A stretch of 64,000 nucleotides of DNA from an uncultured Pelagibacteraceae bacterium (GTDB taxonomy: Bacteria; Pseudomonadota; Alphaproteobacteria; Pelagibacterales; Pelagibacteraceae): assembly GCA_902601545.1 (NCBI GenBank), contig CACKNR010000003.1:1-64000 (forward strand), in the 5' to 3' direction. The position numbers were made by a program, and so were the translations under genes. A model generated the notes under the pieces. It did no database searches. It saw only the letters and a program-made list of their open reading frames with translations, and was not told where the DNA came from. Positions within the stretch are counted from its first letter, which is position 1, and each line of letters starts with the position of its first letter. This document shows, piece after piece, positions 1 to 4,462 of this stretch.

Positions 1-490
1 TGACCCAGATCTTGTATCGGTTTTAGACGGTAATTTTACAAAATGGTTAAAGGAAAAAAGATTTGTATCAAAAAAAATAAATACAATTAAAAAAACTAAT
101 TATAAAGCTGAAGAAAATACATCTATGGTAATAAATAAAGCCCAAGTAAAAGAAAATATATCAAGTAAAAAATTTCAGTTAATAGACGCTAGAAGCAAAG
201 AAAGATTTTCAGGTTTGGTACCTGAGCCCCGAAAAGGATTAAAGAGCGGTCACATTGAAGGATCTAAAAACATACCTTTTCAATTACTTTTAAATGAAGA
301 TCGAACCTTCAAAAAAAAAGAAGAGTTAATAAAGATTTTTGATCAGAATGAAATAGATAAAGATAAAGATATTGCTTTTACATGCGGATCTGGAGTTACT
401 GCATGTATTTTAGGACTAGCTAATTCTATTATAAGTGGTAAAAAACCAACTATCTATGATGGCTCCTGGTCAGAGTACGGATTAGAATAA
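1..490 (+). CDS. sseA: 3-mercaptopyruvate sulfurtransferase, C-terminal part (partial at window start)
   Basis: The reading frame is open from base 2, so the gene starts before the window; about 162 residues of its C-terminal rhodanese domain are visible. The active-site loop CGSGVTA is the form typical of mercaptopyruvate sulfurtransferases rather than thiosulfate sulfurtransferases. The segment LIDARSKERFSG and the GHIEGSKNIPF motif are standard rhodanese features. The family moves sulfur from 3-mercaptopyruvate to thiol acceptors or cyanide. An internal ATG at 125 is in frame but lies inside the domain linker and is not the start. The stop is 3 bp before the RND adaptor, so the genes may be co-transcribed. 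Confidence 0.88.
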   Translation, partial: DPDLVSVLDGNFTKWLKEKRFVSKKINTIKKTNYKAEENTSMVINKAQVKENISSKKFQLIDARSKERFSGLVPEPRKGLKSGHIEGSKNIPFQLLLNEDRTFKKKEELIKIFDQNEIDKDKDIAFTCGSGVTACILGLANSIISGKKPTIYDGSWSEYGLE

Positions 491-493
491 AAA

Positions 494-1366
494 ATGAAAA
501 CACCATCAAAATTAAAAGTTTTTTTAATTATTTTTTTTATTGCTATTTTTGCAATTATTGCTGCAAGGCATTTTATTGGTTTACACTATAAAAAGAAATT
601 CAGTGTGAGGCCTGCGCCAGGTGTAATCGTAGAGCAAGTTGAGAGATCATTGTTTTACAAAAGCATAGAAACTTTTGGGACAGCGATTGCACAAAATTCG
701 AAAACTTATAGAATAAAAACTAGTGAAGTTGCTGGAAAATTAAATATTGATAATAGATTTGTAAAAAAAGGCGAAATAATCCTTAGGCTTAAAAGTGGAG
801 AAGAAGTAATTGCAGATTTTGCGGGTAAATTGGGTAAAAGAGAAATTGCTCAAGGAGTTTTGGGTTCAGAGAGCTTAATAGTAACTTTAGACGATTTAAA
901 AAAAATAGTTATAGATATAAAAATTCCAGAGAATTATGTAAGTATACTAAAACCAGGGTTAAAAGCAGAAATAACAAGTTCAGCATTTAAGAAAGCTTTT
1001 AAGGGAAAAGTTCAAACAATTAGCTCAAGAATAGATCCCTCTACGAGATCGATTTTATCCAGAGTTATAGTCGATAATTCTAATTTTGATATCATTCCAG
1101 GGCAATTAATGACAGTAAAAATTATATATGATGAAGTAAACCAAATTGGTGTTCCTGAAAGTGCTGTCACGATTCAAGGTAGTACAGCTTTTGTTTACAC
1201 CGTAAGAGACGAAACTGCTGAAAAAAAAAATATTGAAATTGGTAAAAGAAATTTTGGAAAAGTTTCTGTTGTATCAGGAATAAACGAAGGCGATCTTGTT
1301 ATTACAGAGGGTGTCTCAAAAGTAAGAAATAATGCTAAAATCAAAGTTATAAATCCAAGAAATTAA
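494..1366 (+). CDS. RND efflux periplasmic adaptor (membrane fusion protein), hairpin-less form
   Basis: This 290-residue protein has an N-terminal membrane anchor (about residues 9-27), then lipoyl-like halves, a beta-barrel (about 125-210) and a membrane-proximal domain (about 215-290, GVPESAVTIQGSTAFVYTV). The family links an RND pump to an outer-membrane channel. Most members run 350-400 residues because an alpha-helical hairpin separates the two lipoyl halves. Here the first half (about 80-99, GKLNIDNRFVKKGEIILRL) is followed almost at once by the second (about 105-124, ADFAGKLGKREIAQGVLG), leaving no room for a hairpin. Its stop codon directly abuts the RND pump start, so the two are surely translated together. 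No TolC-like gene is nearby. Confidence 0.88.
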   Translation: MKTPSKLKVFLIIFFIAIFAIIAARHFIGLHYKKKFSVRPAPGVIVEQVERSLFYKSIETFGTAIAQNSKTYRIKTSEVAGKLNIDNRFVKKGEIILRLKSGEEVIADFAGKLGKREIAQGVLGSESLIVTLDDLKKIVIDIKIPENYVSILKPGLKAEITSSAFKKAFKGKVQTISSRIDPSTRSILSRVIVDNSNFDIIPGQLMTVKIIYDEVNQIGVPESAVTIQGSTAFVYTVRDETAEKKNIEIGKRNFGKVSVVSGINEGDLVITEGVSKVRNNAKIKVINPRN

Positions 1367-4300
1367 ATGTTTTTAACAGACCTATCTATCAAAAGACCTG
1401 TCGTAGCCTCAGTAATGAGCTTAGTATTAGTGATATTTGGTCTTGTAACTTTTCAAGAAATTCCAACCGATGAACTACCTGATGTGCAGCCTCCTGTAGT
1501 AACTATTCAAACTGAGTATAGAGGTGCATCGGCAGAAATTGTTGATACTCAAATAACTCAAAAAATTGAGGACTTTGTTGGAGGAACACCTGGACTAGAA
1601 ACGATAGATTCATTTAGTGAGGATGAAAGTTCAAGAATTACACTTACATTTGAGACAAGTTTAGACTTAGATGACGTTGCTAACGATGTAAGAAGCTCTG
1701 TATCTAGAGTGCTTGATAATTTACCAGAGGGTGCGGATCAGCCTGAAATTTTTAAACAAAGTGCAGGTATGAGAACTACTATGTGGTTATCATTCAACTC
1801 TGAAACGATGACTGATTTAGAATTGACTGATTACGCCGATAGATATTTAACTGATACTTTCTCTACTGTTGATGGCGTAGGCAGAGTTCGCCTTGGTGGT
1901 CAAAGAGAGCTCTCACTAAGAGTTTGGTTAGATCCAATTGCTTTAGCTGCAAGAGATCTTACGACTCAAGAAGTTGAGACAATTCTCAGACGAGAAAATA
2001 CAGAGTTCCCAGCTGGACGAATTGAGTCAAAAGATATCGATCTAACTATAAAACTAGATAAAGCTTATAAAGAAGTTGAAAATTATAAAAATCTACCTCT
2101 AAAAAGAGCTAAGGACGGTTCGATCATAACCTTGTCAGATGTTTCAAGAATCGAATTAGGAGCTGAGTCAACAAGAACTCTTTTTAAAGGCAACGGAAAA
2201 CAAGTTGTTGGTATAGGGATATATCAACAATCTGATGCAAATACCATCGCGGTAGCGAATGGGATCAAAAAAAAAATTAAAGAACTAAAACCAAGCTTGC
2301 CTCCAGGAACTACCTTAGAAGTTTCATTCGATAGAAGTAATTATATAAAATCTGCTATTAAAGAGGTTTATAAAACGCTGATTATTGCATTAATATTAGT
2401 TACTATTATTATTTATCTATTTCTCGGCAACCTTAGAGCTTTGGTAGTCCCTTTAATAGCTTTGCCTGTTTCATTAATCTCAACTTTTTTATCAATTTAT
2501 ATTTTTGATTTTTCAATAAACCTTTTTACTCTGATGGCCTTAGTACTAGCTATCGGTATTGTGGTTGATGATGCCATTGTGATGCTTGAAAATATTGTAA
2601 GGAGAATAGAGTTAGGGGATACACCTTTAGTTGCAGCTTACAAAGGTGCTAAGCAGGTATCATTTGCAATAATAGCTACAACTGTTGTGTTAGTAGCAGT
2701 ATTTATTCCTCTAATTTTTATTAAAGGAATTACAGGAGTTCTTTTTACTCAAACAGCGCTTACTCTTGCATCGGCTGTAATTATCTCTAGCTTTGTTGCG
2801 TTATCATTAAGTCCAATGTTGGCAAGTAAATTTTTGCAAAAAGATATGCAAAAATCTAAAATTGTTTTAAAATTTGAAAAGTTTTTAAAAGATCTCACTT
2901 ATCTTTATAAAGTTTCACTATTAAATTGGATAAAGAAAAGAAAAACAATAACTATTTTTTTATTAGGAACTCTAGCATTAACAATATTCTTTTTTAATTT
3001 TACTAAGAAAGAATTAATTGCTCCTGAAGATAGGGGAGCATTCTTTGTAATCGTAAAAGCTCCACAAGGGTCAGGTTTTAATTTTACCAAAGATAGAGCA
3101 GAAGAAATCGAGAAATTATTGCTTCCAAATGTAGGTAAAGGTGAATATAGAAAATTAATCATGCGAGTTCCTGGTTTTGGAAAATCTGCTAAACAAGTAA
3201 ATAGTGGATTTATAATTGTTCTTTTAGAGCCTTGGGCTAAAAGAGATCGTCATGGTGTTGAGATAATGAGAGAGTCTTTTGGAAAAATTGCGAGAGTGCC
3301 GGGTGTTTTGGCTTTTCCAATAATGCCTCAGGGAATAAGGACTGGCGGAATAGAAAGTCCAGTTCAATTTGTTGTTTTGGGTAATACATATGAGCAATTG
3401 ATTGAGTGGAAAGAGATAATTAAAAAAGAAGCAAGAAAAAATCCTGGTCTCACCTCTATTCAAGATGACTTTGATCTGAACAAACCTCAATTAAATGTAA
3501 AGATAGATCAAAAAAAAGCTGCTGATCTAGGAGTTTCTACAGAAGATATTGGAAAAACTATAGAAACAATTTTTGGTTCAAAAAGAGTTACAAACTTTAC
3601 AAGAGATGGAAAAGAATATTCTATAATTTTGCAAGGCGATATCAAAGATAGACAAGAGCCAGATAGTATAAGTAAAGTTTTTGTGAGATCTAAAAACAAT
3701 GGAAAGCTTGTATCTGTGTCAAACTTAGTTGCATACGATGAAGAGGGACAGTCACCATTCTTAGCAAGATACAATAGACAAAAAGCTGTTACTATATCGG
3801 CAAGACTTGTCGGAGACTATTCCCTTGATGAGGCTCTAAATTTTTTAGTAAGTGTTGTAGAACAAAATACACCTCAAGCAAAAATTGCTTATAAAGGTGA
3901 AAGTGAAGAGTATAAAAAAACTAATACTGAACTTTATGTAATATTTGCTTTAGCATTAATTACTGCATACCTGGCAATGAGTGCTCAATTTGAAAGCTGG
4001 AGGCATCCACTGACAATTATGTTAACTGTGCCTATGGCTATTCTTGGTGGATTAATTGGTTTACTAGTAGTTGGGTCTTCCTTGAATGTTTATAGTCAGA
4101 TAGCGTTAATCATTTTGATAGGTCTCTCAGCTAAAAACGGTATCCTAATTGTAGAATTTGCAAATCAGTTAAGGAAGGAAGGAAAAAATTTAGAAGTTGC
4201 TGTATTTGAAGCTGCCGCTATTAGGCTAAGGCCTATTCTCATGACAAGTATCTCGACAATTATTGGGGTTTTACCACTAATTCTTGGAACTGGACCAGGT

Positions 4301-4462
4301 GCTGCAAGTCGATTAACTGTTGGTATAACAATATTTGGTGGAATGCTATTCTCAACATTTTTTACTCTCTACGTAATCCCTACTGTTTATACAATTGTTG
4401 GAAGAGGAACCAAGAGGATTGATTCTGTTGAAATTGAGCTACAGAAACAGCTTAAAAAATAA
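1367..4462 (+). CDS. RND family efflux pump, inner-membrane subunit (AcrB/MexF-like, HAE1 type)
   Basis: A full-length RND transporter of 1031 residues. It shows TM1 at about residues 11-28, a large periplasmic porter domain, a TM2-TM6 block from about 335, the paired acidic residues Asp401-Asp402 in GIVVDDAIVMLEN that relay protons in TM4, and a second TM block near 855-1010. The family exports hydrophobic compounds, drugs or lipids by proton antiport, but the substrate cannot be told from sequence. It forms a two-gene unit with the adaptor, with no gap. Its end overlaps the oppositely oriented lipoprotein gene by 11 bp. Confidence 0.95.
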   Translation: MFLTDLSIKRPVVASVMSLVLVIFGLVTFQEIPTDELPDVQPPVVTIQTEYRGASAEIVDTQITQKIEDFVGGTPGLETIDSFSEDESSRITLTFETSLDLDDVANDVRSSVSRVLDNLPEGADQPEIFKQSAGMRTTMWLSFNSETMTDLELTDYADRYLTDTFSTVDGVGRVRLGGQRELSLRVWLDPIALAARDLTTQEVETILRRENTEFPAGRIESKDIDLTIKLDKAYKEVENYKNLPLKRAKDGSIITLSDVSRIELGAESTRTLFKGNGKQVVGIGIYQQSDANTIAVANGIKKKIKELKPSLPPGTTLEVSFDRSNYIKSAIKEVYKTLIIALILVTIIIYLFLGNLRALVVPLIALPVSLISTFLSIYIFDFSINLFTLMALVLAIGIVVDDAIVMLENIVRRIELGDTPLVAAYKGAKQVSFAIIATTVVLVAVFIPLIFIKGITGVLFTQTALTLASAVIISSFVALSLSPMLASKFLQKDMQKSKIVLKFEKFLKDLTYLYKVSLLNWIKKRKTITIFLLGTLALTIFFFNFTKKELIAPEDRGAFFVIVKAPQGSGFNFTKDRAEEIEKLLLPNVGKGEYRKLIMRVPGFGKSAKQVNSGFIIVLLEPWAKRDRHGVEIMRESFGKIARVPGVLAFPIMPQGIRTGGIESPVQFVVLGNTYEQLIEWKEIIKKEARKNPGLTSIQDDFDLNKPQLNVKIDQKKAADLGVSTEDIGKTIETIFGSKRVTNFTRDGKEYSIILQGDIKDRQEPDSISKVFVRSKNNGKLVSVSNLVAYDEEGQSPFLARYNRQKAVTISARLVGDYSLDEALNFLVSVVEQNTPQAKIAYKGESEEYKKTNTELYVIFALALITAYLAMSAQFESWRHPLTIMLTVPMAILGGLIGLLVVGSSLNVYSQIALIILIGLSAKNGILIVEFANQLRKEGKNLEVAVFEAAAIRLRPILMTSISTIIGVLPLILGTGPGAASRLTVGITIFGGMLFSTFFTLYVIPTVYTIVGRGTKRIDSVEIELQKQLKK

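Follow-up and report, generated by a model that had tools for sequence, protein, structure and literature searches.

An RND adaptor without a hairpin in Pelagibacteraceae, and how its pump may work with a single TolC

How does an RND pump reach an outer-membrane channel, if it does so at all, when its adaptor lacks the alpha-helical hairpin that usually stands between the two halves of the lipoyl domain? The question is raised by a gene at the beginning of contig C3 of an uncultured Pelagibacteraceae genome (844 kb in 29 contigs, 71.6% complete). The stretch analysed here, hereafter the window, is the first 64,000 nucleotides of that contig. A sequence-only reading of the window had described the two lipoyl halves as joined by only some five residues and had seen no outer-membrane factor nearby; it had guessed that the pump works without a TolC partner or couples to TolC in another way, perhaps in lipid or envelope transport.

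The adaptor and its locus

The locus consists of the following features, given with their coordinates in the window, their strand and the evidence for each.

2..490, + strand: 3' part of a 3-mercaptopyruvate sulfurtransferase-like gene (profile match; the contig starts inside the gene)
494..1366, + strand: RND adaptor without a hairpin, 290 aa (protein families, AlphaFold2 model, BesA as best match)
794..802, + strand: junction of the lipoyl halves, residues 101-103, after LRLK (alignment gap; model strands 95-99 and 104-106)
1367..4462, + strand: RND permease of the AcrB/HAE type, 1031 aa (family profiles; docking region and proton-relay residues)

Among the open reading frames of the window, the adaptor occupies a single unbroken frame. 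The start codon of the permease follows the adaptor stop codon immediately, with no spacing, and the sulfurtransferase-like gene ends just 5' of the adaptor start codon. This upstream gene, whose match to the 3-mercaptopyruvate sulfurtransferase model falls below that model's cut-off, is probably on one transcript with the adaptor. The order sulfurtransferase to adaptor is kept in 12 of the 13 family loci compared (L034, L036, L137-L139, L141, L143-L147 and L151, together with window positions 2-4462). At these 13 loci the adaptor and pump genes follow each other with no other gene in between, and the conserved neighbours are the sulfurtransferase gene, an MsrA-like gene and unrelated genes. 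A gene for an MsrA-type sulfoxide reductase, recognised by eye, mostly precedes the sulfurtransferase gene at the family loci, and with these two neighbours the pump may therefore be part of a sulfur or oxidative-stress transcript.

The adaptor scored 123.6 bits against the RND_mfp profile TIGR01730, for which the curated cut-off is 94.9 bits, and covered only positions 135-321 of the profile. Of the traits usual for RND_mfp proteins, an RND permease encoded next to the adaptor is present, and a hairpin between the lipoyl halves is absent. We obtained an AlphaFold2 model of the adaptor, using an alignment of 32 family members as input (mean pLDDT 89.2, pTM 0.70), in which lipoyl strands 95-99 and 104-106 are linked by a turn. 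A structure prediction had been proposed by the sequence-only reading as a way of locating a hairpin elsewhere in the protein, and none was found anywhere in the model. The sole long helix is the N-terminal membrane anchor (residues 5-37), after which the body is mostly beta and, judged by the model and by structural matches, made up of membrane-proximal, beta-barrel and lipoyl domains.

Alignment with Escherichia coli AcrA and with hairpin-bearing relatives located the difference precisely. At the junction after residue 101, the window adaptor and eight further family members have no residues at all, compared with 74 in AcrA and 60 in each of 14 alphaproteobacterial relatives. AcrA and MexA, the adaptors of AcrAB-TolC and MexAB-OprM, share with the window adaptor the TIGR01730 profile and the lipoyl, barrel and membrane-proximal fold, and the 14 relatives share its domains at the junction and its position 5' of an RND gene, but unlike the window adaptor both AcrA and these relatives carry the hairpin. 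The gene at 494-1366 is a genuine RND adaptor from which the hairpin is cleanly missing, and the short connection of the lipoyl halves described earlier is borne out by both the model and the alignment gap.

The neighbouring permease is matched by the Pfam profile ACR_tran over profile positions 2-1020 of 1021, and it keeps the equivalents of AcrB D407, D408, K940, R971 and T978, which we take to be the proton-relay residues of AcrB. These sequence features assign the permease to the AcrB/HAE type, which does not by itself identify a substrate. Nothing that we found points to the lipid or envelope transport suggested for it earlier. In the one-contig genome G190, the RND gene is spread over two frames (C1:270574-273599, L143), by a frameshift or a sequencing error.

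Spread of the short form and its origin

A short adaptor could also be the product of a frame error, a deletion artefact or a pseudogene, and the one point in favour of such an origin is the odd length of the protein. This explanation is refuted and has next to no probability left, because the short form is common to 27 other full-length sequences in the genus, at 61-97% identity, and to 80 of 80 named loci, which are the best 80 of 178 confirmed matches. At every one of these 80 loci the adaptor frame is 288-313 aa long, the largest insertion relative to the window adaptor is a single residue, and the permease begins 0-7 bases past the adaptor stop codon. Several other genera carry the same hairpin-less form, and the structural model is confident. 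The sequence-only reading had named a frame error as an objection and had suggested a survey of how widely adaptors of about 290 residues pair with this type of RND pump; no such error turned up, and the pairing was found at all 80 loci.

The in-genus sequences derive from a search that gave a match in 30 of 37 genomes, the seven misses being 59-82% complete. One of the 30 matches is the window itself (L003), and two truncated at the end of a contig (L027 and L032) were left out. Throughout the order, a match was obtained in 329 of 397 genomes and in 137 of the 151 genomes that are at least 90% complete. Fifteen listed genomes of the family or genus, 83-94% complete, gave no match. In the two no-match genomes that were checked (G148 and G169) the permease is cut short, which is consistent with contig breaks; of two genomes with only weak matches, G191 has a permease that is cut short and G171 has none. 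The closest named relatives of the window adaptor belong to uncultured Pelagibacteraceae, with L080, from Candidatus Pelagibacter ubique strain SCGC AAA795-E07, at 88% identity. The hairpin-less adaptor is the rule across Pelagibacteraceae (SAR11). In genus g6, some adaptors (L169, L171, L173 and L181) are extended at the C terminus by about 40 residues, among which a KFDWLKKLNIFKK-like stretch is conserved.

In the wider class, we surveyed the best 150 or so matches from 385 genomes, a selection in which rare hairpin-less adaptors of weak score could be hidden. Six among the matches listed extend over the whole profile, namely those of the window genome, four family genomes and G569. The remaining matches listed start at profile position 40 at least, most of them near 90, and mostly lie in frames of more than 330 aa. 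Three shorter adaptors from the survey have a hairpin in each case, and a 257-aa frame of G486 gave no adaptor match by BLAST. The genome G569 belongs to another family and carries an adaptor and pump of the Pelagibacteraceae type on an 8.5-kb contig (C23, L259). Since this pump nests within the Pelagibacteraceae clade of the pump tree, we read the pair as probable contamination, with transfer as the alternative.

The hairpin-bearing relatives of the locus indicate where the short form came from. In the 14 alphaproteobacterial relatives introduced above (L221-L234), the hairpin adaptors adjoin pumps that are 43-53% identical to the window pump over the first half, and these are therefore pumps of the same type. 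In a pump tree of 49 hand-picked rows, calculated from the first 470 residues by a quick method and with several long branches flagged, the hairpin-less rows make up one side of a single branch with support of 100, which requires one change of label. Rooted on hairpin-bearing outgroups, the tree reads as one hairpin loss, not dated, before the family diversified. A single loss is also the most likely course of events because pumps of this type in other Alphaproteobacteria pair with adaptors that have a 60-residue hairpin. We considered in addition an origin from the hairpin-bearing system of the sister family, which is unsupported: the sister pumps are only about 20-27% identical, and better pump relatives are found in other Alphaproteobacteria.

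A single TolC with its gate residues kept

The absence of an outer-membrane factor noted by the sequence-only reading holds for the surroundings of the gene but is misleading for the genome, which has one TolC on another contig. This TolC is 429 residues long and is encoded on contig C2, next to a kinase-like gene recognised by eye, so that tolC and the adaptor gene are unlinked in this assembly. On the tolC contig, a proteorhodopsin-like gene adjoins ferredoxin-like and reductase-like genes, again as judged by eye (L033, 6864-9186). The count of TolC genes that the earlier reading had called for gave the same picture in the family, with one outer-membrane factor gene in 31 of 34 genomes, two in 2 of 34 and none in 1 of 34. 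In G408, TolC is encoded by the divergent neighbour of the adaptor gene, the sole such case in the 13 loci compared.

We also counted adaptors. A single HlyD_3 frame over the cut-off was present in 29 of 31 family genomes, among them the window genome (itself 71.6% complete), and this frame is the hairpin-less adaptor. With one HlyD_3 frame and one outer-membrane factor per genome, TolC is therefore left without any other adaptor that the HlyD_3 profile detects. The simplest inference, reached by elimination, is that the adaptor and its pump are the partners of TolC. Two genomes, G066 and G068, have a second outer-membrane factor and further HlyD-like frames beside the hairpin-less adaptor, one of them with a TGA inside the match; the regions searched for TolC in these genomes were C1:893743-921559 (L252) and C1:1005676-1026729 (L253), respectively.

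If the two proteins meet without a hairpin, either partner might have grown to bridge the distance. A longer TolC barrel can be dismissed, the lengths being as in E. coli in all 13 family TolCs: the stretches aligned to residues 90-185 and 305-405 of mature E. coli TolC measure 96 and 101-102 residues, compared with 96 and 101 in E. coli. A larger docking region of the pump was sought in an alignment of AcrB, the window pump, six other family pumps and three pumps partnered by hairpin adaptors, which shows no insertion particular to the family; a six-residue deletion relative to AcrB is present in the hairpin-partnered relatives as well. With neither a lengthened barrel nor a docking insertion, no visible feature of either partner takes the place of the missing hairpin.

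The tips of TolC are its most conserved 25-residue windows in the family, with mean identities of 0.74 and 0.70 compared with 0.43 overall. Four sister-family TolCs served as controls, three of which have the gene of a hairpin-bearing adaptor alongside, and the tips of the four have identities of 0.63 and 0.73 compared with 0.50 overall. Because sister-family TolCs thus show conserved tips too, tip conservation is not special to Pelagibacteraceae. The residues D153, Y362 and R367 form the primary gate of TolC, according to a review (PMC8277102). Equivalents of all three closed-gate residues are kept in 13 of 13 family TolCs; Y362 is missing in all four sister-family TolCs. On the other hand, the position of D374, in the aspartate ring, is an aspartate in none of the 13 family TolCs.

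BesA and the route from pump to channel

The known protein that the window adaptor most resembles is BesA of Borrelia burgdorferi, the crystallised adaptor of the tripartite BesABC pump (PDB 4KKS, 4KKT and 4KKU). BesA chains were the best structural match by Foldseek (E 1e-15), and BesA was also the best match by VIA-align (Z 18.6, rmsd 4.1 over 242 residues), with canonical adaptors reaching Z values of at most 16.5. Like the window adaptor, to which it is 22% identical, BesA keeps three domains, has a short loop in place of the hairpin and is the partner of an AcrB-type RND pump. Nine residues connect its lipoyl halves, compared with 61 in MexA and 75 in AcrA, and a head-to-tail arrangement of BesC with BesA and BesB was proposed in 2008 (PMC2279261). 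The BesA structure followed in 2013, in a paper that found no other adaptor in the Borrelia genome, again as for the window adaptor, and noted BesA-like sequences in Treponema, Spirochaeta and, rarely, proteobacteria such as Legionella (PMC3807786).

There are differences as well. BesA is a lipoprotein whose gene shares an operon with besC (PMC3807786, PMC2279261), whereas the window adaptor starts with a membrane helix and the TolC gene of its genome lies on another contig. The gate of BesC is predicted to be significantly less stable (PMC8277102), whereas the gate residues are intact in the 13 family TolCs; a simple copy of BesABC therefore fits less well.

A 2015 review regards an assembly that lacks the hairpin as 'fully incompatible' with models of the tip-to-tip kind (PMC4446572), and BesA is unmentioned in the passages considered from a 2026 review of adaptors (PMC13328181). 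We found no description of a hairpin-less adaptor from SAR11 in the open-access literature, as represented by titles and the beginnings of abstracts. The hairpin-less kind of adaptor is thus already known from BesA, and the window adaptor adds another case.

The reading that we favour, and consider rather probable, is a minimal BesABC-like pump that works with the cell's single TolC, the channel being docked directly by the pump and the lipoyl ring. The N-terminal helix would anchor the adaptor, and the membrane-proximal, barrel and lipoyl domains would form a ring around the trimeric pump. Since no hairpin reaches up, the single TolC would dock straight onto the pump funnel and the lipoyl ring, as has been proposed for BesABC. 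With the TolC barrel and the docking region of the pump not lengthened, it would be the pump or the lipoyl ring, and not adaptor hairpins, that triggers the opening of TolC. We infer from this that pump and TolC dock directly and that an intact gate is opened without hairpins.

Two other readings have to be weighed against direct docking. The pump may be free of TolC, taking up its substrate in the inner membrane or the cytoplasm and releasing it to the periplasm, with the adaptor regulating or stabilising the pump and TolC serving another system. Such a pump would agree with the lack of a hairpin in the adaptor model, with a tolC gene that is unlinked in the window genome and near the adaptor only in G408 among 13 loci, and with gate residues that are intact, as if an ordinary hairpin adaptor opened the channel. 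However, 29 of the 31 family genomes are without another HlyD_3-type adaptor over the cut-off to serve TolC, and BesABC, as described in its two reports (PMC2279261, PMC3807786), is a tripartite pump with an outer-membrane channel despite its hairpin-less adaptor. Together with the one TolC in 31 of 34 genomes and the locus of G408, the evidence leans against the pump without a TolC partner that the sequence-only reading had put forward, and we regard it as unlikely. The more successful of its two suggestions was that the pump couples to TolC in another way, for which BesA provides a published precedent (PMC3807786).

Less likely still is a split adaptor, in which a second, small coiled-coil protein would provide the hairpin in trans. 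The E. coli-type closed-gate residues and strongly conserved tips of TolC look as if something inserts there, but there is no gene between adaptor and pump from which such a protein could be made, and the neighbours are the sulfurtransferase, MsrA-like and unrelated genes already described. In most family genomes, moreover, profile searches found no further HlyD_3 or RND_mfp frame above the cut-off, although these profiles detect bare coiled coils poorly and a separate coiled-coil partner could escape them.

Direct docking of TolC by the pump and the lipoyl ring leads us to a broader proposal, which we put forward tentatively and with some doubt: in Pelagibacteraceae, the only TolC system of the cell may combine an adaptor whose hairpin was lost with a TolC that keeps its full closed gate. 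SAR11 bacteria are very abundant in the sea. If the proposal is true, the direct opener of TolC is the pump or lipoyl ring, and the hairpin, to which tip-to-tip models assign the roles of channel opener and sealing tube, would be dispensable in these very abundant cells.

Taken together, our results place the architecture of BesA, an awkward exception to tip-to-tip assembly, in another phylum, where the short form is a fixed trait throughout a large family of marine bacteria that are streamlined. Family genomes mostly have one RND pump, one adaptor and one TolC, and with close hairpin-bearing systems at hand for comparison, Pelagibacteraceae therefore offer a natural before-and-after experiment on the role of the hairpin.
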